From: Psychrobacillus soli
Lineage (GTDB): Bacteria; Bacillota; Bacilli; Bacillales_A; Planococcaceae
DNA length: 32,872 nucleotides
Direction: 5' to 3'
Assembly (NCBI RefSeq): GCF_006861775.1
Contig: NZ_VDGG01000042.1
Location: forward strand, 1 to 32,872
The translations under genes were made by a program, and so were the position numbers. The notes beneath the pieces were generated by a model, which saw nothing but the letters and a program-made list of their open reading frames with translations, searched no databases and was not told where the DNA came from. Shown one piece after another: positions 12,513 to 22,112 of the stretch (position 1 is its first letter; every line of letters starts with the position of its first letter).

Positions 12513-13406
12513 TTGTTCAATCGGGTGAACAAATTATTAATTGAACTCCCAAACTTAGAGTATGGTGATGCAAATGCCGCCGCAGCTGTACAAGAATTAC
12601 TAGGTGGAAAGTTTGGCGAAATGTCTACTTTGAATAATTATATGTATCAATCATTTAACTTCAGAGAAAAGACGAAACTCAAGCCTTTTTACGATCTAGT
12701 AGCGAGTATAACAGCTGAGGAATTTGGACACGTGGAGCTTGTTTCTAATACGATAAACTTATTACAAAAAGGTACGACATTTAATGGCGATCCAGATGTT
12801 ACACCACTTCAAAGTGCAAAGGATAAAAGAAACACTTATCACTTTATAGCGAATGCGCAAACCTCTCTAGCAGGCGATTCCATGGGGAGCCCATGGAGAG
12901 GGGACTATGTTTTTTCAAGCGGCAATCTAGTACTTGATTTACTTCATAACTTTTTCTTAGAATGTGGTGCAAGAACGCATAAAATGCGCGTATATGAAAT
13001 GACGGACCATCCTACTGCAAGAGAAATGATTGGTTACTTGCTCGTTCGCGGAGGCACCCATATTTTGGCATATGCAAAAGCAATGGAGATAGCTACTGGA
13101 GTAGATGTAACTAAAATGCTTCCAATTCCAAATTTAGACAACAGAGCTTTTGATCAAGCGAAAAAATACGAGGACCTTGGTTATGGAAATGTATTATTTA
13201 CGTGGAATAACGTAGGAGACTATGCAGATATAAAGCAAATTTGGAAAGGAACGAACCCAGCAAGTGGCGCACAGCTAATTGTAAAAGAAGGTAGTCCACA
13301 AGGGTATGATATACCAGATTTAGATTCTCTTCCAGAAGAGTTCGCTCCTGGAATTGGACCGGAAGAGTATAAAGCAATTGCTAAAAGGCTTATGGAAAAT
13401 ATGTAA
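12513..13406 (+). CDS. Manganese (non-haem) catalase
   Basis: The 297-residue ferritin-like catalase breaks down hydrogen peroxide at a dimanganese centre. The ligands line up with known manganese catalases: Glu36 (GGKFGE), Glu70 and His73 (EEFGHVE), Glu150 (FFLECGAR) and His183 (RGGTHI). The DSMGSPWRGDYV and SSGNLVLDL segments are also typical. The RGGTH form resembles the Thermus type rather than the RETQH form of Lactobacillus. The start is a TTG with AAGGAG nine bases upstream; nearby ATGs are out of frame. The coat-associated relative CotJC is much shorter, so this is the full-length enzyme. It is co-transcribed with the DUF2642 gene and ends at a strong terminator. Confidence 0.92.
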   Translation: MFNRVNKLLIELPNLEYGDANAAAAVQELLGGKFGEMSTLNNYMYQSFNFREKTKLKPFYDLVASITAEEFGHVELVSNTINLLQKGTTFNGDPDVTPLQSAKDKRNTYHFIANAQTSLAGDSMGSPWRGDYVFSSGNLVLDLLHNFFLECGARTHKMRVYEMTDHPTAREMIGYLLVRGGTHILAYAKAMEIATGVDVTKMLPIPNLDNRAFDQAKKYEDLGYGNVLFTWNNVGDYADIKQIWKGTNPASGAQLIVKEGSPQGYDIPDLDSLPEEFAPGIGPEEYKAIAKRLMENM

Positions 13407-13410
13407 AAAA

Positions 13411-13434
13411 GACCGATTGCATGTGCAATCGGTC
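13411..13434. terminator. bidirectional terminator
   Basis: GACCGATTGCA (13411-13421) pairs with TGCAATCGGTC (13424-13434), flanked by AAAAAA on the left and AATTTTTT on the right. It can therefore end the catalase operon on the plus strand and the long met operon on the minus strand. The stop codon of the CoA-transferase gene lies at its right arm. Confidence 0.88.
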
Positions 13435-14626
13435 AATTTTTTAGTACACTATTTGCTAAAAAAGTATCTATCTCATCAGCAGAATAGCCAAGTTCCACTA
13501 GTACCTCTTTATTATGCTGTCCAAGAAGAGGGGCAGGGCTTTTAATTTGTCCTGGTGTTTCTGAAAATTTAGCAGGGAAGCCAAGTGTTTTCATCGCACC
13601 GGCTACTGGGTGTTCGTATTCTAAAATCATTTCTCTTGAAAGAATATGTTCGTCTGCAAGTGTTTGATCATACGAATAAATTGGTCCAGAAGGGATACCA
13701 TTTTTGTCTAGTAGGTCAAGCCAGTATGCGGAATCCTGTTCTTTCAACACATTTTCCATCTCTATTTCTAATTCATCCACATGGTGTGCGCGAATACTAT
13801 TCGTTAAAAATCGCTCATCTTCAATCCATTCAGGTTTATGTACAACAGATAAACAAAAATTTTCCCAAAGTTTTTGGTTCGCTGCGCCAATAAGGATGAA
13901 ACCATCTTTTGTTTTATAACCTTGATAAGGAGCAGAAACACGATGAGCAGTTCCGTTTCTACGCGGTACTTCACCTTTTCCGAAATATGCTGCTGCTTCC
14001 CAAACTGTCCAAGCAAGACCAGAATCGACTAGTGAGACATCGATATATTGTCCAGTACCAGTTTTCAAACGGTGAATATAAGCTGCTAAAATAGATTGAA
14101 TAGCTGTTTGTGCAGCCGCAATATCATGAATGGCAATACCTACTTTTACAGGTTTTCCTTCTCGTTCTCCTGTCATATCGATTAGACCGGAAAGACCTTG
14201 TGCCATAATATCAAATCCACCCTTATTTGTGTAAGGACCTGATTGACCATAACCAGAGATCGAACAATAAATAATACTAGGATTAATCGATTTTAACGTA
14301 TCATAATCAATACCAAGTTTTTTCGTAACACCTGGACGATAGTTTTCGATAAATACATCCGCGTCTTTTATTAATTTATATAATACCTGTACACCTTCAT
14401 CTGTTTTTAAATTTAGGCAAACCCCGCGTTTATTGCGATTCACCATCATATACATATAGCTTTCTTCATTTATATAAGGTCCCATTAATCTAGTATCATC
14501 ACCAGATGGGAACTTTTCTACTTTGACAACATCAGCTCCCATATCTCCAAGTACCATCGTGCAGTATGGTCCAGCTAACACTTGAGATAAATCGACTACT
14601 TTCAACCCTTTTAATGCTTGTTCCAT
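13433..14626 (-). CDS. Family III (CaiB/BaiF) acyl-CoA transferase
   Basis: The 397-residue protein belongs to the formyl-CoA/carnitine CoA-transferase family, which moves CoA between carboxylic acids. N-terminal LKGLKVVDLSQVLAGPYCT, GADVVKVE, NRNKRG and FIENYRPG motifs are present. Asp168 (VGIAIHDIA) lies where the family has its catalytic aspartate (Asp169 in Oxalobacter Frc). AAPYQGYK-like and NGIPSGPI elements follow. The ribosome binding site is AAAGGTGGTAA before the ATG. It is the last gene of the SAM-riboswitch operon, 26 bp after the oxidase gene, and ends at the bidirectional terminator. The acid substrate is unknown; context points to a methionine-related or 2-hydroxy acid. Confidence 0.88.
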   Translation of the reverse strand: MEQALKGLKVVDLSQVLAGPYCTMVLGDMGADVVKVEKFPSGDDTRLMGPYINEESYMYMMVNRNKRGVCLNLKTDEGVQVLYKLIKDADVFIENYRPGVTKKLGIDYDTLKSINPSIIYCSISGYGQSGPYTNKGGFDIMAQGLSGLIDMTGEREGKPVKVGIAIHDIAAAQTAIQSILAAYIHRLKTGTGQYIDVSLVDSGLAWTVWEAAAYFGKGEVPRRNGTAHRVSAPYQGYKTKDGFILIGAANQKLWENFCLSVVHKPEWIEDERFLTNSIRAHHVDELEIEMENVLKEQDSAYWLDLLDKNGIPSGPIYSYDQTLADEHILSREMILEYEHPVAGAMKTLGFPAKFSETPGQIKSPAPLLGQHNKEVLVELGYSADEIDTFLANSVLKN

Positions 14627-14652
14627 TTCGAGTTACCACCTTTAATAATCTA

Positions 14653-15795
14653 TTAGCTTTTCACAATTTTTAACTTGTGAAGTTCATTTAAGTTACGCAC
14701 TCCACTTAAAGAAATGGAAACCTTTGTCTCTTGAAGGAAATTTTCTAATACTCTTTCCACTCCAGCTTGTCCACCAGAAGCTAACCCCCATAAAAATGGG
14801 CGACCTATACATACGGCAGTTGCACCTAGTGCTAAAGCTTTAACAGCATCTGAGCCACGACGAATACCACTATCAAACAATACTGGAATTCTACCGGCTA
14901 CTGCATCGACGATTGTAGGAAGTGCATCGATACTCGCAATAACACCATCTAATTGACGGCCACCATGATTGGATACAATAATCCCATCAATTCCTTTTTC
15001 AAATGCCAATTTCGCATCATCTGGATGAAGAATTCCTTTTATTAGAATCGGAAGTGACGTTCTTTCTTTTAGTTCAGCAATATTGTCCCAATTTAAGGAA
15101 GGGTGATAAATGTTTTCAATTATACTATTAATAATCGTGTCTTCATCATAGTCTGGAAGTGAAGCCATAAACACAGGATCGGATGCATAGTTTCCTTTTG
15201 CAAATCCTCTTTTAAGGGGAGAGAATTGGTTACGAATATCCTCTTCACGCCAGCCGAGCATTACTGTGTCAACTGTTAGCACAATTGCTTCATAACCAGC
15301 TTCCTCTGCTCTTTTTACCATGCTAAATGAGATTTCTTTATTTTGTGACCAATATAATTGATACCATTTCGAGCTTCCTTCTGTCACCGCAGCAATTTCC
15401 TCTATAGCATAGCTGGAAACTGTACTTTGTATATATGGAAACTCATATTTTGCCGCTGCTTTTGCGACAGCAATTTCGCCGTCCACATGTGCAATTTTGT
15501 TTACCCCAACTGGAGCGATGAAAAGAGGGTGGGGGTATGTACGACCAAAAATCGTCACTTCCGTATTTAAAACAGATACATCTGTCAAAAATCTTGGAAC
15601 GATAGAGTATTTAGCAAATGATTCTGTATTTTTACGATACGTTTCTTCTCCACCAGCAGATGACCGGATGTAACCAAAAGGACCGGCTGCTAATTTTTGT
15701 TTTGCAGCTTGTTCTAATTCGTTGAAGTTAATCGGAAAATTTTCAGTTGAACTAATAGTATCTAATAATAAATCATTATTTTTTATATTTGTCAT
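14653..15795 (-). CDS. FMN-dependent 2-hydroxy-acid oxidase (lactate/glycolate oxidase family)
   Basis: This 380-residue flavoprotein would oxidise an L-2-hydroxy acid to the 2-keto acid. Active-site residues of the family are all visible: Tyr42 (GYIRSSAGG), Tyr148 (WYQLYW), Asp176 (LTVDT), Arg183 (LGWREEDIRN), Lys253 (PILIKGI), and His277 with Arg280 (SNHGGRQLDG). The LGWRxxDI form recalls lactate 2-monooxygenases rather than LGRR of glycolate oxidase, so the outcome with oxygen is uncertain. I prefer the ATG at 15795, eight bases after AAGGAG; a GTG at 15804 lies inside that site. It is the fifth gene of the SAM-controlled operon, 12 bp after the crotonase. A plausible substrate is 2-hydroxy-4-methylthiobutyrate, giving the keto acid used by MtnE. 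Confidence 0.87.
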   Translation of the reverse strand: MTNIKNNDLLLDTISSTENFPINFNELEQAAKQKLAAGPFGYIRSSAGGEETYRKNTESFAKYSIVPRFLTDVSVLNTEVTIFGRTYPHPLFIAPVGVNKIAHVDGEIAVAKAAAKYEFPYIQSTVSSYAIEEIAAVTEGSSKWYQLYWSQNKEISFSMVKRAEEAGYEAIVLTVDTVMLGWREEDIRNQFSPLKRGFAKGNYASDPVFMASLPDYDEDTIINSIIENIYHPSLNWDNIAELKERTSLPILIKGILHPDDAKLAFEKGIDGIIVSNHGGRQLDGVIASIDALPTIVDAVAGRIPVLFDSGIRRGSDAVKALALGATAVCIGRPFLWGLASGGQAGVERVLENFLQETKVSISLSGVRNLNELHKLKIVKS

Positions 15796-15807
15796 TTTTT
15801 CCACTCC

Positions 15808-16584
15808 TTACGAAAAGTTAGGTTTTCTTTTTTCTAAAAATGCTGCAATTCCTTCTTTATAATCATCCGAACTAAATGAATCTAAAATGAGTTGTTCGAT
15901 TTCTTTCGTTTCTGCATTTTCTCCATCGATAATCGATTGGATTACTTGTTTAATCCCATTGTTTGCAACGGAAGATTTGCGAATAATGTGACCGGCAAAT
16001 TCTAAACATTTTACTTCAATTTCTTCCATTGAATAAACGTAATCGATTAAGCCAATTTCTTTTCCTTCTTCCGCACGAATCAATTTAGCCGTATATAATA
16101 ATTCTTTCGCTTTCGATGGTCCGATTAAGTTAACTAACCGTTTAGTGCTCGTTAAATTGTAAATAATCCCGATATTAGCAGCAGTAATGCCGAGTTTACT
16201 TCCGGTTGTAGCAAAACGGAAATCACAAGAGTTTGCTAATTCTAAGCCCCCACCAATTGCTAGTGTTTTAATAAGGGCGATTGTAGGCTTTGGAAAACGA
16301 TACAATTTTTCGATAGACTCAAGTGTAGCATCATTATAATCTTTTGCCTTTTGAGCAGAAAAACGATTTTCTAGAAACTCCGAAATATCAGCGCCGGATG
16401 AAAATGCTGTTTCATCTACTCCTTTCAAAATCAGTACTTTAATTTGCTGATCCGATTCCAAGTCTTCTAGTAATTCGCCTAATTGTTTAAACATAGCAAG
16501 AGAAAAAGAATTTTTCTTTTCTGCACGATTAAAAATAAGTGTAGCGATAGCACCATTTTTTTCTACATATAAATTATTCGACAT
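15808..16584 (-). CDS. Crotonase-superfamily protein (enoyl-CoA hydratase/isomerase), atypical active site
   Basis: The 258-residue protein has the crotonase fold: N-terminal IATLIFNRAEKKNSF, oxyanion-hole segments FSSGADISEF (61-70) and TLAIGGGLELANSCDFR (107-123), and the C-terminal EGIAAFLEKRKPNF. Glu115 matches catalytic Glu144 of rat enoyl-CoA hydratase, but the second glutamate (Glu164, in QPE) is Ala135 here (GITAANIG). Many crotonase-fold isomerases, hydrolases and other non-hydratases have one or neither of these acids, so simple hydratase activity is doubtful. GGTGGAGG precedes the ATG. It follows metI by 14 bp and its stop TAA overlaps the next ribosome binding site, so it is firmly in the SAM-riboswitch operon. 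The substrate is unknown. Confidence 0.87.
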   Translation of the reverse strand: MSNNLYVEKNGAIATLIFNRAEKKNSFSLAMFKQLGELLEDLESDQQIKVLILKGVDETAFSSGADISEFLENRFSAQKAKDYNDATLESIEKLYRFPKPTIALIKTLAIGGGLELANSCDFRFATTGSKLGITAANIGIIYNLTSTKRLVNLIGPSKAKELLYTAKLIRAEEGKEIGLIDYVYSMEEIEVKCLEFAGHIIRKSSVANNGIKQVIQSIIDGENAETKEIEQLILDSFSSDDYKEGIAAFLEKRKPNFS

Positions 16585-16598
16585 TTGAAAACCTCCAC

Positions 16599-17270
16599 CT
16601 AATCTTTTTTCAGTCTTGCAGCCAGTCTATTTCCAATAGACTGGATACTTTGAACAAGGACAATTAAAATGAAGACAGTAGCATACATAACATCCACTTC
16701 ATAACGCAAATGTCCGAAACGATAAGCTAAATCCCCAAGACCACCAGCACCTACCATACCAGCCATCGCAGTTGCTCCTATTAAGCTAACGGTTGAAATC
16801 GTTAATCCTAAAATAATGGAAGGGCGAGCTTCACGAAGGAGCACATGCCAAATAATTGATCTTGTTTTAATACCCATTGCGGTGTAAGCTTCGACAACGC
16901 CATTTTCAACTTCAAGTAATGCGGACTCCATCAGACGCGCAATATACGGTGCCGTATAAATAACAAGAGGGACGATTACTCCTTTTACACCGATAGTTGT
17001 TCCAACGATGTATTTTGTAAAAGGGAGAATGAAAAATAGCAAAATGATAAATGGAATAGAACGAAGTATATTAATTACTAAGTTGCTAAGTTGATATAAA
17101 ATCTTATTTTGTAAAGCCTGACCCGGTCTCGTTAATACGATTAATATTCCGAGCGGTATTCCAATAAGCACGGAGAAAAACAAAGAAATTCCAACCATTT
17201 GAAACGTTTCAATGACTGATTTGCCGATAATCGGTAGCCATTGATCTGTAAAAGTCTCTAATCTATTCAT
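16599..17270 (-). CDS. metI: Methionine ABC transporter permease MetI
   Basis: The 223-residue integral membrane protein has about five hydrophobic segments and the EAA-type loop VVEAYTAMGIKTRSIIWHVLLREARP (residues about 123-149; only the ends VVEAYTAMG and LLREARP matter), which couples to the ATPase. The C-terminal GATAMAGMVGAGGLGDLAYRFG is the MetI hallmark, quoted here as GATAMAGMVGAGGLG. It forms the membrane channel for methionine import with MetN and MetQ. Its ATG overlaps the metN stop as ATGA (17267-17270), so the two are translationally coupled. In B. subtilis the same protein is called MetP. Confidence 0.95.
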   Translation of the reverse strand: MNRLETFTDQWLPIIGKSVIETFQMVGISLFFSVLIGIPLGILIVLTRPGQALQNKILYQLSNLVINILRSIPFIILLFFILPFTKYIVGTTIGVKGVIVPLVIYTAPYIARLMESALLEVENGVVEAYTAMGIKTRSIIWHVLLREARPSIILGLTISTVSLIGATAMAGMVGAGGLGDLAYRFGHLRYEVDVMYATVFILIVLVQSIQSIGNRLAARLKKD

Positions 17271-18286
17271 GATTGTCCCTCCAAGTTCTCAATGCCCACG
17301 CCATGTTCCTCTAAAAATCTTAACGCAGCATTTACTTGATCTTTTTCTCCTGTTAAATGAATGACGATATTGCCAACAATACCATTTTTTAATTCAATAA
17401 TATTTGCCGCTAAAATATTTGGTTGCACATTAAATTTTTGACTTATTTCTGCAAGTAATGGCTGACCGGCACTTTCTCCAACGAATGTTAATCGAGTAAC
17501 GCTACCCGTCACATGTAATTGTGAAATTAATGCAGAGGATAGATTGCGCTGACTAATTGTATTTAAAAACTTTTTCGTAGTAGGATGTGTAGGTTTTGTA
17601 AATAACTGAATGGCATTATTTTGTTCTACGACATGACCGTTTTCCATTACATATACATGATCACAAATTTTTTGAATGACATTCATCTCATGCGTAATGA
17701 GTAAAATAGTAATTCCTAACTCCTTATTAATTTTTAATAGAAGGTCTAAAATAGAATCGGTTGTTTCAGGGTCAAGTGCGCTTGTTGCTTCATCACTTAA
17801 TAAAATTTCTGGTTCTTGAGCAAGTGCTCTTGCAATAGCGACGCGTTGTTTCTGGCCACCGGATAATTGGTTTGGATAGTTTTTGTGTTTATCTGTTAAT
17901 CCAACAATCTCTAAATACTTTTCGACTCTAATCTTTACTTCTTCTTTGTCATATCCGAGAAGCTTTAGGGGAATCGCAATATTGTCGTACACTGTCGCTG
18001 TTTTTAAAAGGTTGAATCCTTGGAAGATCATCCCTATTTTATTTCGAGCTTTACGTAATTTGGGAAGGGGGAGGGAAGTGGTTTCTACTCCATTTATATA
18101 TACTTTTCCTTCTGTTGGTCTTTCGAGTAAATTAACGCAGCGAATAAGCGTACTTTTTCCAGCGCCGCTATAACCGATAACACCGTGAATTTCTCCTTTT
18201 TTTACGTGTACATTTACATCACTTACTGCTTTTACTATTCCACTTTTACTATGGAATTCTTTCGAAATATTTTCTAATACAATCAT
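17267..18286 (-). CDS. metN: Methionine ABC transporter ATP-binding protein MetN
   Basis: The 339-residue ATPase energises methionine uptake. Walker A is GYSGAGKST (about 38-46), the signature is LSGGQKQRVAIARAL (about 141-155) and Walker B is ILLSDEATSALDPE, followed by the switch histidine in LLITHEM. Residues from about 260 to the end form the NIL domain, which binds methionine and inhibits transport when the cytosol is replete; the stretch SLISQLHVTGSV-like ALISQLHVTG, then NIVIHLTGEKDQV and VGIENL, marks it. AAAGGA precedes the ATG. It is the second gene after metQ, with a hairpin in the 57-bp gap, and overlaps metI. Confidence 0.96.
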   Translation of the reverse strand: MIVLENISKEFHSKSGIVKAVSDVNVHVKKGEIHGVIGYSGAGKSTLIRCVNLLERPTEGKVYINGVETTSLPLPKLRKARNKIGMIFQGFNLLKTATVYDNIAIPLKLLGYDKEEVKIRVEKYLEIVGLTDKHKNYPNQLSGGQKQRVAIARALAQEPEILLSDEATSALDPETTDSILDLLLKINKELGITILLITHEMNVIQKICDHVYVMENGHVVEQNNAIQLFTKPTHPTTKKFLNTISQRNLSSALISQLHVTGSVTRLTFVGESAGQPLLAEISQKFNVQPNILAANIIELKNGIVGNIVIHLTGEKDQVNAALRFLEEHGVGIENLEGQS

Positions 18287-18306
18287 TATATGTCTTCCTT
18301 TCTAAA

Positions 18307-18336
18307 GAAAACGTTACCGATGTCGGTAACGTTTTC
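18307..18336 (-). terminator. perfect hairpin between metQ and metN (attenuating terminator?)
   Basis: GAAAACGTTACCGA (18307-18320) and TCGGTAACGTTTTC (18323-18336) are a perfect 14-bp inverted repeat with a 2-nt centre. On the minus strand the arm ends in TTTTC followed by TTT. It probably terminates part of the transcripts after metQ, or protects the metQ 3' end, giving more binding protein than transporter. Confidence 0.6.
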
Positions 18337-18343
18337 AAAATCT

Positions 18344-19165
18344 TTACTCATCCCAGCTAGGTAATACAGAACCTTGAAACTCTTCTTCAATGAATTGTTT
18401 TACTTCTTCTGATTGATAAGCTTTAACAAATTTTTGAATCGTTGGGTCATCTTTGTTTTCGGCACGTACTACAACATAGTTTACATATGGTGAGTTAGAT
18501 GATTCTAGTAAAATAGAATCTGCTTTTGGACTAATACCAGCTGCTAGTGCAAAGTTTGTATTAATCGCAGCAGCGTCTACTTCACTTAACTGTTTTGGAA
18601 TTTGAGCAGCTTCTAGTTCAATGAATTTTAAGTTTTTTGGGTTTTCTTCAATGTCGTATATAGAAGCAGTTTCTCTTTTGTCTTCTTTAATTTTGATGAA
18701 TCCATTTTCTTCTAAAATATATAATGCACGTGCGCCATTTGTAGGATCATTTGGTAAACCAAAAGTTGCGCCATCTGGAAGGTCATCCATCGATTTGTAT
18801 TTATCCGAATACACGCCCATTGGGTTTAATATTGTTTTTCCTACTGGCACTAAATCTGTACCATGATCTTCGTTAAACGTATTTAAAAACGGTTCGTGTT
18901 GGTAACTGTTTGCATCTAAATCACCTTCTGATAATGCTGTGTTTGGAAGGATGTAATCAGAAAATACTTTAAGTTCCACTTCTAGTCCGTCTTTAGCGGC
19001 TACTTCTTTTGCCACTTCTACAATTTGTTCATGCGGTCCTGCAGTTACACCAATAACTAATTTTTTCTCGTCTAACGTTTTATCCCCACTACTAGAGTCA
19101 TCTCCACATGCAGCAAGTGCTCCAGTTAATAATACGCTTGATAAAAGTAATCCGAATTTTTTCAT
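18344..19165 (-). CDS. metQ: Methionine-binding lipoprotein MetQ
   Basis: The 273-residue protein begins with a lipoprotein signal, MKKFGLLLSSVLLTGALAAC, with the lipobox cysteine at 20, so it would be anchored outside the membrane. The mature part has the NlpA/MetQ fold: VIGVTAGPHEQIVEVAKEVA, then SYQHEPFLN, PNDPTNGARAL and NTNFALAAG (each separate). It captures methionine for MetNI; D-methionine is also a known ligand class for the family. AGGAGG precedes the ATG. It is the first gene after the SAM riboswitch, whereas the common order is metN-metI-metQ, so this operon puts the binding protein first. Confidence 0.94.
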   Translation of the reverse strand: MKKFGLLLSSVLLTGALAACGDDSSSGDKTLDEKKLVIGVTAGPHEQIVEVAKEVAAKDGLEVELKVFSDYILPNTALSEGDLDANSYQHEPFLNTFNEDHGTDLVPVGKTILNPMGVYSDKYKSMDDLPDGATFGLPNDPTNGARALYILEENGFIKIKEDKRETASIYDIEENPKNLKFIELEAAQIPKQLSEVDAAAINTNFALAAGISPKADSILLESSNSPYVNYVVVRAENKDDPTIQKFVKAYQSEEVKQFIEEEFQGSVLPSWDE

Positions 19166-19212
19166 TTCTTATTCCTCCTAATAATTATGAGTAACGTTGA
19201 ATAAAAATAAAA

Positions 19213-19240
19213 GCCTCTCTTTCCAAAAAGAAAGAGAGGC
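19213..19240 (-). terminator. riboswitch-controlled terminator
   Basis: GCCTCTCTTTC (19213-19223) and GAAAGAGAGGC (19230-19240) form a perfect 11-bp stem with a 6-nt loop, followed on the minus strand by TTTTATTTTT. Its first arm contains CCTCTCTT, which can instead pair with AAGAGAGG at the 3' side of riboswitch helix P1. This is the classic choice between antiterminator and terminator in S-box leaders. Confidence 0.9.
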
Positions 19241-19258
19241 GCATAAATAAAAGTTGTC

Positions 19259-19378
19259 CTCTCTTATCTTCCAAAACAAAATGTTTTGCAGGATTTAGCA
19301 CCTTTCTACATAGATTATTATGTAGATGGTTGCCGAGCTTCATCGGGCCAGTCCCTCAGCTACTCTTGATAAGAGATA
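19259..19378 (-). promoter_or_regulatory. SAM-I (S-box) riboswitch
   Basis: Read on the minus strand, helix P1 is TCTCTTATC (19376-19368) pairing with GATAAGAGA (19268-19260). Between them are the conserved S-box blocks AAGAGTAGCTGAGGGACTGG, then CCCGATGAAGCTCGGCAACC, a P3 stem (TCTACATA/TATGTAGA), AAGGTGCTAAATCCTGCA and a P4 stem (AAAACA/TGTTTT). High SAM would favour the terminator at 19213-19240 and switch the operon off; low SAM would allow metQ and the downstream genes to be read. Confidence 0.96.
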
Positions 19379-19414
19379 TAGTCTATTAAATTTTTCAGTC
19401 GTTCCATAAATGAT

Positions 19415-19443
19415 AATTTACTACATCACTTTGCTAAAGTCAA
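19415..19443 (-). promoter_or_regulatory. promoter of the met operon
   Basis: On the minus strand TTGACT (19443-19438) and TAAATT (19420-19415) are separated by 17 bp, a good sigma-A promoter placed about 40 bp before the riboswitch. Confidence 0.8.
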
Positions 19444-19525
19444 CAAAATTTTTCTAATTGAAATATTCAGTCGCTATAGTTTAAAGTAAGTATCAATAAA
19501 TAATTATACAAGGATGATGAAAATA

Positions 19526-20032
19526 ATGGCAACAGTAAAAGTTAATTATGCAACAGGAAAGTTCGGAAAAACGGTAGGTGCTAGATTAGTATTCGGAACG
19601 GATTTACTAGAAGGTATCGAGCAATTATGTGCAGAAAACGATATACAATATGCAACGATTATTAGCTGTTTTGGTAGTTTTCAGCGCAGTGGCTTCGTGT
19701 ATTTAGTGCCAAATGAAACATCTATTATTGGTGTTGGATATAATGACCTGGTCGTAAAAGAGGGGCCAATCGAATTTTTACAAGGTACTGGGGTTGTTTG
19801 TAAGAGAGAAGGAGCATACGAAACTCATTTTCACGGTACAATGTGTGACCAAAAAGGGAATATTTTTGGAGGTCATTTTATAAAAGGGGAAAACCCGGTT
19901 ATTACGGTGGATCTTGTATTAGCAGAAGTTACTGGAATGGAATTTCATCGAAAATTTGATCCAGAAACTGGTGCCAATCAATTTTTTCCGATAGAAATCA
20001 ATTCAAACGAACCGAAAAAAATAGAAAAATAA
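19526..20032 (+). CDS. PPC-domain protein (DUF296)
   Basis: The 168-residue protein is almost entirely one PPC/DUF296 domain. Typical elements are GTDLLEGIEQLCAENDI, ATIISCFGSF, and the metal-binding-like HFHGTMCDQKGNIFGGH motif followed by VDLVLAEVTGMEF. In plants this domain is part of AT-hook proteins; stand-alone bacterial versions are trimeric and their role is unclear. Earlier in-frame ATGs at 19514 and 19517 overlap or crowd AAGGA, so the ATG at 19526 is preferred. It is divergent from the SAM-riboswitch operon and convergent with mtnE, so it sits inside a methionine neighbourhood, but no function can be read from that alone. Confidence 0.85.
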   Translation: MATVKVNYATGKFGKTVGARLVFGTDLLEGIEQLCAENDIQYATIISCFGSFQRSGFVYLVPNETSIIGVGYNDLVVKEGPIEFLQGTGVVCKREGAYETHFHGTMCDQKGNIFGGHFIKGENPVITVDLVLAEVTGMEFHRKFDPETGANQFFPIEINSNEPKKIEK

Positions 20033-20083: not shown

Positions 20084-21247
20084 TTAAAATAGCTCTAATT
20101 TGGCAATTCGATCAATCGCTTCTTCCAAACGATGTTCATCTACAAGTAAACCTACGCGAATATAGCCTTCTCCAACTGCCCCAAATCCATTACCAGCAGC
20201 AACGGCTACATCCGCTTTATCTAATAGTAAATCTGCAAACTCTTCACTTGTGTATCCGTTGGCAACAGGCAACCACGCGAAAAAAGATCCTTTTGGTGCT
20301 TTTACATCCCAATCAATTTTGGCACAAGCATTGACTAATGCATTTCTTCGACGTTCATACAAGGAAACTAATTCATCTACGCATTGTTGACTTTCATTAA
20401 GCGCCGCTGCGGCTGCTGATTGAACAGCAGGGAAGAGACTCACAAATAAATGATCTTGTATAATATTAATCGCTTCAATCATTTTAGCATTTCCTACTGC
20501 AAATCCCACACGCCAGCCTGCCATATTATACGTTTTCGAGAGCGTGTACATCTCTACACCAACTTCTTTAGCACCATCCACTTGAAGGAAGCTTATTGGT
20601 TTTACACCGTCGAATCCTACCGCTCCATAAGCAAAATCATGCACAATGGCAATATCAGATTCTTTAGCTAGTAGCACTGTCTCTTCAAAAAACTCTTTCG
20701 TAGCAGTAGCGCCAGTTGGGTTATTTGGATAATTTAAATACATTAATTTTGCTGCTTGTTTTTGTTCATTCGTTAACTTCCTGTAATCTGGTAAGTATTC
20801 ATTTTCTTCAAGCAGAGGCATTGTATCAAATCGAACATTTGCAAGACCCGCTCCGGACAAGTAATCAGGATAACCTGGATCCGGAAGTAACATCAATTCT
20901 TGTTCATTCATCATCGCAAGTGGTAATTCTACTAATCCTATTTTTGTTCCGAACATAACTGCTACTTCCGTGTGAGGATCTATGTCCACATTATATTCAC
21001 GTTTATAAAAGTCAGCAGCTGCTTGTTTGAGATCATTTGTACCTCTAAAAGGGGAATATCTATGTGACCCGGGATTAGCAGCCGCCTCTTGTAGTGCTTT
21101 CACAATATGTTCTGGAGTCGGTTGATCTGGATTTCCTTGCCCCAGATTGATAACATCTCTTCCTTCCGCAACAGCAGTTGTTACTTTTTGAACAAGAGAA
21201 GCAAAAAACTGTGTTGGTAGATTTTTTAATCGATTTGAAAAGTCCAT
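20084..21247 (-). CDS. mtnE: MtnE aminotransferase (methionine salvage)
   Basis: The 387-residue class I/II PLP aminotransferase closely resembles B. subtilis MtnE (YkrV), which converts 4-methylthio-2-oxobutyrate to methionine, typically with glutamine as amino donor. Shared stretches include QFFASLVQKV, DVINLGQGNPDQPTPEHIV, LMYLNYPNNPTGA, HDFAYGAVGFDG and TLSKTYNMAGWRVGFAVGNA; Lys238 there binds PLP. GAGGT precedes the ATG. It diverges from mtnU over 85 bp, as in B. subtilis, but I see no S-box leader in that gap and no other mtn genes in the window. It can serve the keto acid expected from the hydroxy-acid oxidase in the neighbouring operon. Confidence 0.92.
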   Translation of the reverse strand: MDFSNRLKNLPTQFFASLVQKVTTAVAEGRDVINLGQGNPDQPTPEHIVKALQEAAANPGSHRYSPFRGTNDLKQAAADFYKREYNVDIDPHTEVAVMFGTKIGLVELPLAMMNEQELMLLPDPGYPDYLSGAGLANVRFDTMPLLEENEYLPDYRKLTNEQKQAAKLMYLNYPNNPTGATATKEFFEETVLLAKESDIAIVHDFAYGAVGFDGVKPISFLQVDGAKEVGVEMYTLSKTYNMAGWRVGFAVGNAKMIEAINIIQDHLFVSLFPAVQSAAAAALNESQQCVDELVSLYERRRNALVNACAKIDWDVKAPKGSFFAWLPVANGYTSEEFADLLLDKADVAVAAGNGFGAVGEGYIRVGLLVDEHRLEEAIDRIAKLELF

Positions 21248-21293
21248 GTACGTTACCTCTTTTTCTTAATAGTTGCATATATTAGTCAAATCT

Positions 21294-21299
21294 TATAAT
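21294..21299 (+). promoter_or_regulatory. -10 of the mtnU promoter
   Basis: A consensus TATAAT lies 33 bp before the mtnU start codon. TTGCAT at 21273-21278 could be the -35, but with a short 15-bp spacer. On the opposite strand TTGACT at 21286-21281 may be part of the mtnE promoter. Confidence 0.5.
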
Positions 21300-21332
21300 C
21301 TTTTTAGTATTATGTCTATAGGTGGTGTCGAG

Positions 21333-22112
21333 ATGAAAGTTGCTTGTGTTCAATCAGATATTGTTTTTGGTGAGCCAAAAGAAAATTTTAAAAATGTAGA
21401 GAAACAGATTCGAGAGGCAGCTTCAAGTGGAGCAGATGTAGTCGTATTACCAGAAATGTGGAATTCGGGATATGATTTAACTCGATTAGAAGAAATTGCA
21501 GATGTGAACGGAGAAGAAGCAAAAAAACTATTATCCCAACTCTCCAAAGAATTAAATGTACATATTGTTGGAGGCTCTGTTTCGATAAAAAAAGGGGACA
21601 AATTTTACAACACTATGTATGTTACGAATACTTTAGGTGAAGTCATAGCTGAATATGACAAAGCGCATTTGATTAAATTGATGGATGAACATCTTTACTT
21701 TGAAGCAGGTAATGAGAAAAATCTATTTACACTTGATGGCGTCAAAATGGGTGGAATTATTTGCTATGATTTGCGTTTTCCGGAATGGACGAGAGCACAT
21801 TCGTTAAATGGTGCAAAAGTCATGTTTATTCCAGCGCAATGGCCGACTAAACGGATCGATCATTGGAAAATTCTTTTGCAAGCAAGAGCAATTGAAAACC
21901 AAAGCTTTATCATAGCAGTGAATCGTGTAGGAAGTGATCCGCATAATGAATTTGGCGGTAATTCTCTGGTAATATCTCCTTGGGGAGAGGTTTTATGGAA
22001 TGGTGGAGACGAGGAATGTGTGCAAATCGTCGATATTAATCTGGAAGAAATAGATGATGTGCGAGGGCGCATTCCGGTGTTTTCGGATAGAAGAGAAGAA
22101 CTTTATAAATAA
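21333..22112 (+). CDS. mtnU: MtnU, nitrilase-family omega-amidase
   Basis: The 259-residue carbon-nitrogen hydrolase equals B. subtilis MtnU (YkrU) in length. The catalytic Glu-Lys-Cys set is Glu41 (VVLPEMWN), Lys110 (EYDKAHL) and Cys144 (GGIICYDLRFPEW). Omega-amidases hydrolyse 2-oxoglutaramate left by glutamine-dependent transaminases, pulling the MtnE reaction toward methionine. The ATG at 21333 is preferred because AGGTGG lies just upstream; a longer frame from 21273 has no such site and would run into the promoter. It is divergent from mtnE, the pairing expected for joint function, and ends at a strong hairpin. Confidence 0.9.
   Translation: MKVACVQSDIVFGEPKENFKNVEKQIREAASSGADVVVLPEMWNSGYDLTRLEEIADVNGEEAKKLLSQLSKELNVHIVGGSVSIKKGDKFYNTMYVTNTLGEVIAEYDKAHLIKLMDEHLYFEAGNEKNLFTLDGVKMGGIICYDLRFPEWTRAHSLNGAKVMFIPAQWPTKRIDHWKILLQARAIENQSFIIAVNRVGSDPHNEFGGNSLVISPWGEVLWNGGDEECVQIVDINLEEIDDVRGRIPVFSDRREELYK

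Follow-up and report, generated by a model that had tools for sequence, protein, structure and literature searches.

A 2013 survey, in the part available to us, judged assorted S-box genes of Bacillales and other groups to be probably methionine or cysteine genes (PMC3766115). In enterobacteria, ybdH is regulated by MetJ, co-occurs with methionine salvage genes, shares metboxes with mtnE in E. coli and is described in the accessible portion of that source as being of unknown function (PMC3228920). In animals, as far as the excerpt consulted goes, L-2-hydroxy acid oxidase converts L-2-hydroxy-4-(methylthio)butanoic acid (L-HMTBA) to 2-keto-4-(methylthio)butanoic acid (KMB), the D form (D-HMTBA) is oxidised by D-2-hydroxyacid dehydrogenase, and a transamination of KMB follows (PMC8941097). 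Here we analyzed a 32,872-nucleotide stretch of Psychrobacillus soli (contig NZ_VDGG01000042.1, termed the window throughout), in which a complete S-adenosylmethionine (SAM)-sensing SAM-I riboswitch, or S-box, lies 5' of six minus-strand genes in the order metQ-metN-metI-crotonase-HAO-CoA-transferase, where HAO denotes an L-2-hydroxy acid oxidase dependent on flavin mononucleotide (FMN), preceded by the gene of a crotonase and followed by that of a family III coenzyme A (CoA)-transferase. We file this locus as an S-box methionine-uptake operon with added enzymes; no description of it was found in the literature covered, which leaves most subscription journals outside.

A conserved importer-oxidase operon behind an S-box

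Conservation was assessed in a family sample of 261 genomes, in which g1 is the window's genus and g3, g7 and g14 are other genera. A profile of HAO matched 74 of these genomes at E 1e-125, with an upper group of 56 genomes at E 1e-170 or better (a cut chosen after the gap between 7e-174 and 3e-163 had been seen), and the neighbourhoods of 44 of the 56 were read (g1 16/16, g14 10/22, g7 4/4, g3 10/10, plus G032, G025, G128 and G129). HAO and metI were found in one same-strand run in 40 of the 44 neighbourhoods, representing seven genera, with HAO directly behind metI or with only the crotonase gene between them. An S-box was present in 35 of the 38 importer-HAO operons that could be tested, Rfam having been run on part of the 40 and contig ends precluding the test in L048 and L199. 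The arrangement is beyond chance, as three genera share the complete order of six genes and seven share the importer-HAO run. HAO is the core partner of the importer. The sequence-only reading of this DNA had named absence of the linkage in relatives as grounds for abandoning its proposal, and that comparison came out in favour of the proposal. Within the genus, a profile search found no operon-type HAO in G002, G005 and G015. A wider contig search with HAO gave, among at least 80 loci, a best identity of 62% (Cytobacillus horneckiae) and below 50% for the next; metNIQ was not seen beside HAO in L063-L066, the 4 annotated among the 80 loci listed, and all 210 records of a plasmid search were below 60% identity.

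The same reading had joined MetNIQ to a hydroxyacid oxidase in one S-box operon, and the gene set and order are confirmed in the window, while the linkage of importer and oxidase is kept in relatives. The importer has the full make-up of a MetNIQ system, with an NlpA/MetQ lipoprotein, a MetI permease and a MetN carrying a NIL domain, all in one operon; its NCBIfam scores lie above the cut-off for MetQ/NlpA (259 of 229) and below it for MetN (374 of 500) and MetI (Table 1), and by alignment the window's MetQ is 44% identical to E. coli MetQ. From metQ to the CoA-transferase gene the intergenic gaps are 57, -4, 14, 3 and 26 bases, so that the values given earlier stand except before HAO, where 12 bases holds only if HAO starts at its alternative ATG. 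Across 25 loci, the intergenic distances between the successive metI, crotonase, HAO and CoA-transferase genes are mostly -68 to 27 bases and 64 once, and they are larger where the crotonase gene is absent or was not called. A terminator between metI and the crotonase gene, which together with a promoter there the earlier reading had taken as decisive against itself, was not listed on the operon strand in the window scan, a scan that is not exhaustive and that missed the metQ-metN hairpin. A single transcript probably spans the six genes. Accidental adjacency, in which the last three genes would be transcribed separately, could draw on a promoter prediction that is uninformative, but it is opposed by these gaps, by the lack of a listed terminator-like site after metI and by the crotonase-HAO-CoA-transferase order, which by coordinates is kept in all 35 genomes that carry the three genes, all of them within the 56 HAO genomes; we regard it as highly improbable.

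The aptamer is the only Rfam match of the window at gathering scores. The 3' arm of its P1 runs on into bases that exactly match the 5' arm of the leader terminator, giving an antiterminator pairing of 8-9 bases in each of the 11 leaders examined, one from the window and 10 from relatives. This layout corresponds to the usual S-box off-switch, in which antiterminator and terminator are mutually exclusive. The claim of a sole strong terminator at the operon end therefore stands for the end terminator itself and falls for the word sole, because the leader bears its own. The single promoter proposed 5' of the operon gained no support from the pattern scan: promoter-like sites in the window number 17 against a shuffle mean of 21.9, hence no enrichment, and an 11/12 match at 19532-19503 beats the proposed site (Table 1).

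HAO belongs to the FMN_dh family, with a PF01070 match and the expected catalytic residues. All 39 operon copies, including one from G012 that carries a stop, have K256, H280, R283, R186, D179 and Y151; the catalytic roles of these His, Arg, Lys, Asp and Tyr residues are those we presume for the family. Two further positions vary, with Tyr45 replaced by His in 4 of the 39 copies and Tyr132 by Phe in three. HAO scores below the L-lactate oxidase and LldD equivalog cut-offs (261 of 645 and 238 of 550 bits), and its nearest kin in the PDB are HAO1, lactate 2-monooxygenase and lactate oxidase. In G012, the HAO gene (L052 9530-10681) is broken by one in-frame stop, and the genome also lacks the crotonase and CoA-transferase genes. 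A paralogous HAO (48%) of the window's own genome (L062 8655-14387, G000:C26) lies behind genes reading as a Liv-type ATP-binding cassette importer, an importer-oxidase pairing that has no S-box.

A predicted route from a hydroxy acid to methionine

The genome holds 12 S-boxes. Ten of the 11 others precede genes that, from their translations and without a family search, read as methionine genes, namely metA, a metI/metC pair, a metH/yitJ-like gene, a metE-like gene, a second metN-metI, a lone metQ, mtnW, metY, mtnK-mtnA and metK; the eleventh (L005) lies at a contig edge and is unassigned. This count upholds the earlier premise that S-box genes concern methionine or SAM, and because of it the odd enzymes of the operon appear to sit within a pure methionine regulon. 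The gene adjoining the operon region on the same strand encodes an MtnE-like aminotransferase, the only protein of the genome to pass the cut-off of PRK08068, a model we equate with MtnE. Its gene was present in the neighbourhoods fetched for 13 of 15 g1 relatives and for 10 of 10 g14 loci. The proximity of this aminotransferase favours the earlier idea of a methionine-related acid.

That idea gains further from a second, YbdH/HcxA-type hydroxycarboxylate oxidoreductase in S-box metNIQ operons of relatives. A gene of this type was detected at E 1e-90 in 36 of 261 genomes, and all 36 neighbourhoods were read, some of them cut by contig ends. In 24 of the 36 it lies in metNIQ or metQ operons, 21 of these with an S-box: 17 loci have the order S-box-metN-metI-metQ-YbdH (in L234 and L235 an antisense open reading frame was called over the place of metI), five g3 loci have YbdH-metQ-metN-metI-HAO with an S-box in two (L192, L221), and two have S-box-YbdH-metQ (L219, L220); the other 12 are unlinked. 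PRK10586 is the best model for the four g3 proteins tested, which reach 297-309 of the 429 bits of its cut-off, and two of these are 38-41% identical to E. coli HcxA, whose gene in K-12 lies beside the methionine transaminase gene ybdL. Judging from these S-box YbdH and HAO loci and the MetJ-regulated ybdH beside ybdL, two unrelated kinds of SAM-sensing regulator govern two unrelated hydroxycarboxylate oxidoreductase families near methionine uptake or transamination genes, and both families, the FMN oxidase and YbdH/HcxA, are tied to a SAM-sensed importer. In uropathogenic E. coli, ybdH and ybdL are induced with met genes in urine, and the part of the report at hand records no significant fitness defect on deletion (PMC5404293), a result that neither helps nor harms the proposal that follows.

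We propose, with roughly even confidence for and against, that low SAM leads to import of methionine or of its hydroxy analogue L-2-hydroxy-4-methylthiobutyrate (HMTB), which HAO turns into an oxo acid and an aminotransferase into methionine. When SAM is low, the S-box would let transcription proceed into metQNI and the enzyme genes, and the importer would take up methionine together with HMTB or a like acid. HAO would then convert the L-hydroxy acid and O2 to the 2-oxo acid 4-methylthio-2-oxobutyrate (KMTB) and H2O2, and the neighbouring MtnE-like aminotransferase would convert KMTB to methionine. HMTB, which is used as a feed additive, would be the simplest substrate common to HAO and YbdH, with KMTB as product. 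The pairing of an S-box-led importer with a hydroxyacid oxidase suggests, and does not prove, such use of HMTB; substrate, direction of flux and identity of the aminotransferase are predictions built on the switch, gene order, conservation, protein families and residues, and co-occurrence, all read from sequence. With HMTB as one substrate, it becomes possible to test directly why methionine regulons include an enzyme for hydroxycarboxylates.

Several observations weigh against use of HMTB. No S-box was detected in three importer-HAO operons (L058, L195, L196), and around four upper-group HAO copies that occur without metNIQ (G221, G236, G253, G227), the 19 kb read contained no S-box; because of these four copies, the switch is seen to travel with the importer and not with HAO. 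In g7 (0/4) and g3 (0/9) no MtnE-like gene lies in the vicinity of the operon, and Tyr45 of HAO is His in four of four g7 copies (L158-L161). The window's MetQ retains the E. coli-like QH motif and may therefore bind nothing but plain methionine. The kin of HAO act on lactate and glycolate, and the positions checked in the 39 operon copies bear no mark of a pocket for the HMTB side chain. HAO could accordingly be an ordinary lactate or 2-hydroxybutyrate oxidase whose co-regulation meets a need of carbon balance (e.g., for 2-oxobutyrate) and supplies no methionine precursor, an explanation that suits the nearest solved structures, the unmarked pocket and the importer-less copies without a nearby S-box. 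It is countered by HAO in metNIQ runs across seven genera and by the YbdH parallel, both of which point to methionine acids, and we consider it unlikely. Gly100 of HAO was examined as a sign of an HMTB pocket and dropped, being present in 12 of 12 non-operon copies too; the A95G variant of lactate oxidase is described, in the section of its source available, for loop structure only (PMC7039449).

The MetQ proteins differ in the QH motif. In the lone metQ behind an S-box (L008 / L252 3250, plus strand, G000:C58) the motif reads QT, as it does in the g3 HAO operons whose metQ was seen and in L219 and L220, the S-box-YbdH-metQ loci. A QT-type MetQ perhaps recognises another ligand, for instance a hydroxy acid.

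HMTB could also arise inside the cell. Under metabolite repair, side reactions of dehydrogenases would reduce salvage KMTB to HMTB, HAO or YbdH would reoxidise it, and the importer would be co-regulated only. The S-box genes of this genome that read as salvage genes (mtnW, mtnK) fit such a role, as does the co-occurrence of ybdH with salvage genes in enterobacteria given in the portion of that survey at hand (PMC3228920), but 40 of the 44 neighbourhoods have HAO and the importer in a single run, and beyond the MtnE-like and MtnU-like neighbours no salvage gene was recognised by eye in the window. Repair seems to us improbable as the role of the operon.

A separable module of crotonase, CoA-transferase and PCC-domain protein

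The sequence-only reading had treated the three enzymes as one set, which did not hold: HAO is the core, and the crotonase and CoA-transferase genes are separable from it, coming and going with the gene of a PCC-domain protein that lay outside that set and is divergent from the operon. With cuts placed at visible gaps (crotonase E 1e-100 or better, CoA-transferase 1e-200 or better), 35 of the 261 genomes, from three genera, have the operon-type crotonase, and the same 35 have the operon-type CoA-transferase; weaker crotonase matches were seen in G038, G247 and G264, and weaker CoA-transferase matches at E 1e-100 in 41 further genomes. HAO and the importer occur without this module, and the operon-type module was not found without HAO and the importer. 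A phylum-wide crotonase search at E 1e-70, scoring at most six candidates per genome, matched one of 398 sampled genomes, the window's own, and as far as sampled the module is confined to the family. A more distant crotonase-CoA-transferase pair in G264 (L163 9514-15847) is accompanied by genes reading as a tripartite ATP-independent periplasmic (TRAP)-type transporter and a second CoA-transferase, and the first Glu of its crotonase is Gln.

The window-type PCC gene (E 1e-80 or better) is present in 33 of the 35 module genomes and in 0 of the 226 others; the next PCC match scores 2e-28, and some PCC gene is detectable at 1e-20 in 72 of the 261 genomes. The module genomes without it are G164 and G173, and the copy of G010 has stops. 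On the HAO tree (51 rows) the minimum number of changes is 5 for the module and 6 for PCC, and module and PCC are all absent in two well-supported sets, G012/G018 and G097/G115/G118/G119, whose tree neighbours have them, which we interpret as the three genes having been lost together, each from its own place. A sign test of PCC against crotonase and CoA-transferase had only 4 independent pairs on supported branches, with a median p of 0.125, and because of this their co-inheritance is suggestive and not proven. A significant phylogenetic test of the association was sought and not reached, and hypergeometric figures do not count as independent evidence.

In all 10 aligned rows, and equally in the g14 and g7 examples, the crotonase keeps E115 but has Ala135 where the second hydratase Glu would be. 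We take the catalytic Glu pair of enoyl-CoA hydratase to be residues 144 and 164 of the rat enzyme; since the second of the pair is replaced by Ala135, the protein should not be called a hydratase, and the earlier description of a crotonase is to be understood without that glutamate pair. It shares 31% identity with E. coli methylmalonyl-CoA decarboxylase ScpB (L210), including GG..E and Tyr-Asn-Leu at the active-site stretch. Of the decarboxylase residues Glu113, Tyr140 and His66, to which we presume catalytic roles, the Glu and Tyr are present and the position of His66 is Ala, and the PRK11423 score is 156 bits against a cut-off of 257. An AlphaFold model of the crotonase had a mean pLDDT (predicted local distance difference test) of 43 and was not used. 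The CoA-transferase belongs to family III by PF02515 and by D168, presumably the catalytic Asp, which is invariant in 10 of 10 aligned rows; it scores below the cut-off of all seven listed family models.

PCC/PPC membership of the third protein is given by PF03479 with the HxH and GGH motifs. H105, H107 and H121 are invariant in 11 of 11 sequences, and the predicted fold (mean pLDDT 89) finds other PCC proteins as best PDB matches, among its relatives 2h6l, titled a metal-containing protein, followed by acetolactate decarboxylases (E 7e-4 to 4e-3). Acetolactate decarboxylase binds zinc through three His residues. The invariant histidines and the fold kinship suggest that the protein is a metalloenzyme and not one that binds DNA. 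The locus gives a prokaryotic PCC-domain protein a conserved setting and, through it, a first enzymatic role that can be tested.

The roles of the module are likewise predictions. In the subset of species that carry it, CoA-transferase, crotonase and PCC protein would widen the range of acids used, either through a CoA ester that they would form and rearrange to supply HAO or through removal of the product of HAO; the module may admit the D-acid by epimerising its CoA ester, or act on a different sulfur acid. That the module simply replaces YbdH was rejected as a rule, because G163, G164 and G173 have both the module and an S-box YbdH locus, which also argues against its being a mere dehydrogenase substitute. 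We tentatively raise, as possible though not probable, a new type of SAM-riboswitch pathway from an external hydroxy or other sulfur acid to methionine through CoA esters, in which the CoA-transferase would load the acid, the crotonase would perform enolate chemistry (epimerisation, elimination or decarboxylation), and the PCC protein, as an acetolactate-decarboxylase-related metalloenzyme that does not bind DNA, would act on a 2-hydroxy acid of the route.

Organosulfur catabolism would give the module a different purpose. The CoA-transferase and crotonase would then act on methylthiopropionate- or acrylate-like acids in the manner of AcuN-AcuK, AcuK being a crotonase, or of DmdD, and the methanethiol released would be re-used by O-acetylhomoserine sulfhydrylase. 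A gene reading as metY does have an S-box in this genome. AcuN, of the acyl-CoA transferase family, and AcuK are a known pair in dimethylsulfoniopropionate (DMSP)/acrylate clusters, according to the available part of one source (PMC3338564), and in Bacillus methanolicus both dmoA and a sulfonate-uptake operon lie behind SAM riboswitches, according to that of another (PMC4342826). However, no acyl-CoA dehydrogenase or DMSP gene was recognised by eye among the open reading frames of the window, the genome at large not having been searched, the crotonase lacks the second catalytic Glu, and HAO would have no obvious place. We therefore think this route doubtful at best.

Features of the window and known systems

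Table 1. Coordinates of the operon, its control elements and adjoining genes in the window
Feature	Position	Strand	Basis or remark
Operon-end terminator	13411..13434	-	10 pairs + T run
Family III CoA-transferase	13433..14626	-	PF02515; D168 invariant
HAO	14653..15804, alternative ATG at 15795	-	PF01070
Crotonase-fold protein	15808..16584	-	PF00378; E115 + Y142, Ala135 at second hydratase Glu position
metI	16599..17270	-	permease; best NCBIfam model MetI PRK10782, 203 bits vs cut-off 212
metN	17267..18286	-	ATPase with C-terminal NIL domain; PF00005 + PF09383
metQ-metN hairpin	18307..18336 (about)	-	13-pair stem, then T-rich stretch
metQ	18344..19165	-	methionine-type substrate-binding lipoprotein; TIGR00363 above cut-off, PF03180
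Leader terminator hairpin with T run	19213..19240	-	terminator scan + leader pairing
Antiterminator arm overlapping aptamer P1	19258..19265	-	exact 8-base complement, pairs with 19232-19239
SAM-I riboswitch aptamer (S-box)	19261..19375	-	Rfam RF00162, 96.1 bits vs gathering score 44.4
Promoter-like -35/-10, TTGACT-17-TAAATT	19415..19443	-	pattern scan, 9/12 matches; not above shuffles
PCC-domain protein	19514..20032	+	PF03479; divergent from operon
Aminotransferase, PRK08068 type (MtnE-like)	20084..21247	-	676 bits vs cut-off 494
Carbon-nitrogen hydrolase, MtnU-like	21273..22112	+	PF00795; neighbour in part of relatives

The metQ-metN hairpin recurs in 11 of 14 in-genus relatives with a visible gap and, because of the T-rich stretch at its end, may serve attenuation or stabilisation. 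The gap is widened in L043, L052 and L053, reaching 371 bases in the last, where two Bacillaceae-1 RNA elements lie inside it (L053 12633-12808). The carbon-nitrogen hydrolase is probably MtnU-like, by position and family. A manganese-catalase-like gene at 12513-13406 (plus strand, identified by sequence reading without a family search) converges on the operon end and is found at the corresponding position in 8 of 15 in-genus relatives; its product could remove H2O2 made by HAO.

Among described systems, YoaD was considered as a precedent and set aside, having been proposed, in the part of the source available, for cysteine degradation and not for hydroxyacid use (PMC2885750). The closest kinship is with S-box metNPQ/metNIQ uptake operons, for example (SAM)-metN-metP-metQ of B. 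methanolicus as given in the available text (PMC4342826), which have the same SAM-I leader and importer families; here, by contrast, metQ comes first, and HAO and, in a subset, crotonase and CoA-transferase follow metI. The AcuN-AcuK acrylate pair of DMSP degraders, likened by description with the sequences uncompared, resembles the module in combining a CoA-transferase and a partner in an organosulfur cluster (PMC3338564, in part), whereas no DMSP gene was recognised by eye in the window. The MetJ-regulated ybdH (hcxA)-mtnE (ybdL) pair, as far as its source was available (PMC3228920), is alike in placing a hydroxycarboxylate oxidoreductase that adjoins a methionine aminotransferase under SAM-sensing control; it differs in belonging to the iron-containing alcohol dehydrogenase (Fe-ADH) family and not to the FMN enzymes, in using MetJ and not a riboswitch, and in having no importer among its neighbours in the K-12 stretch seen. 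Use of the methionine hydroxy analogue by animals, in the portion of the source consulted (PMC8941097), involves the same named enzyme activity and the same chemistry as proposed here, where a bacterial riboswitch operon would apply it to a predicted substrate.

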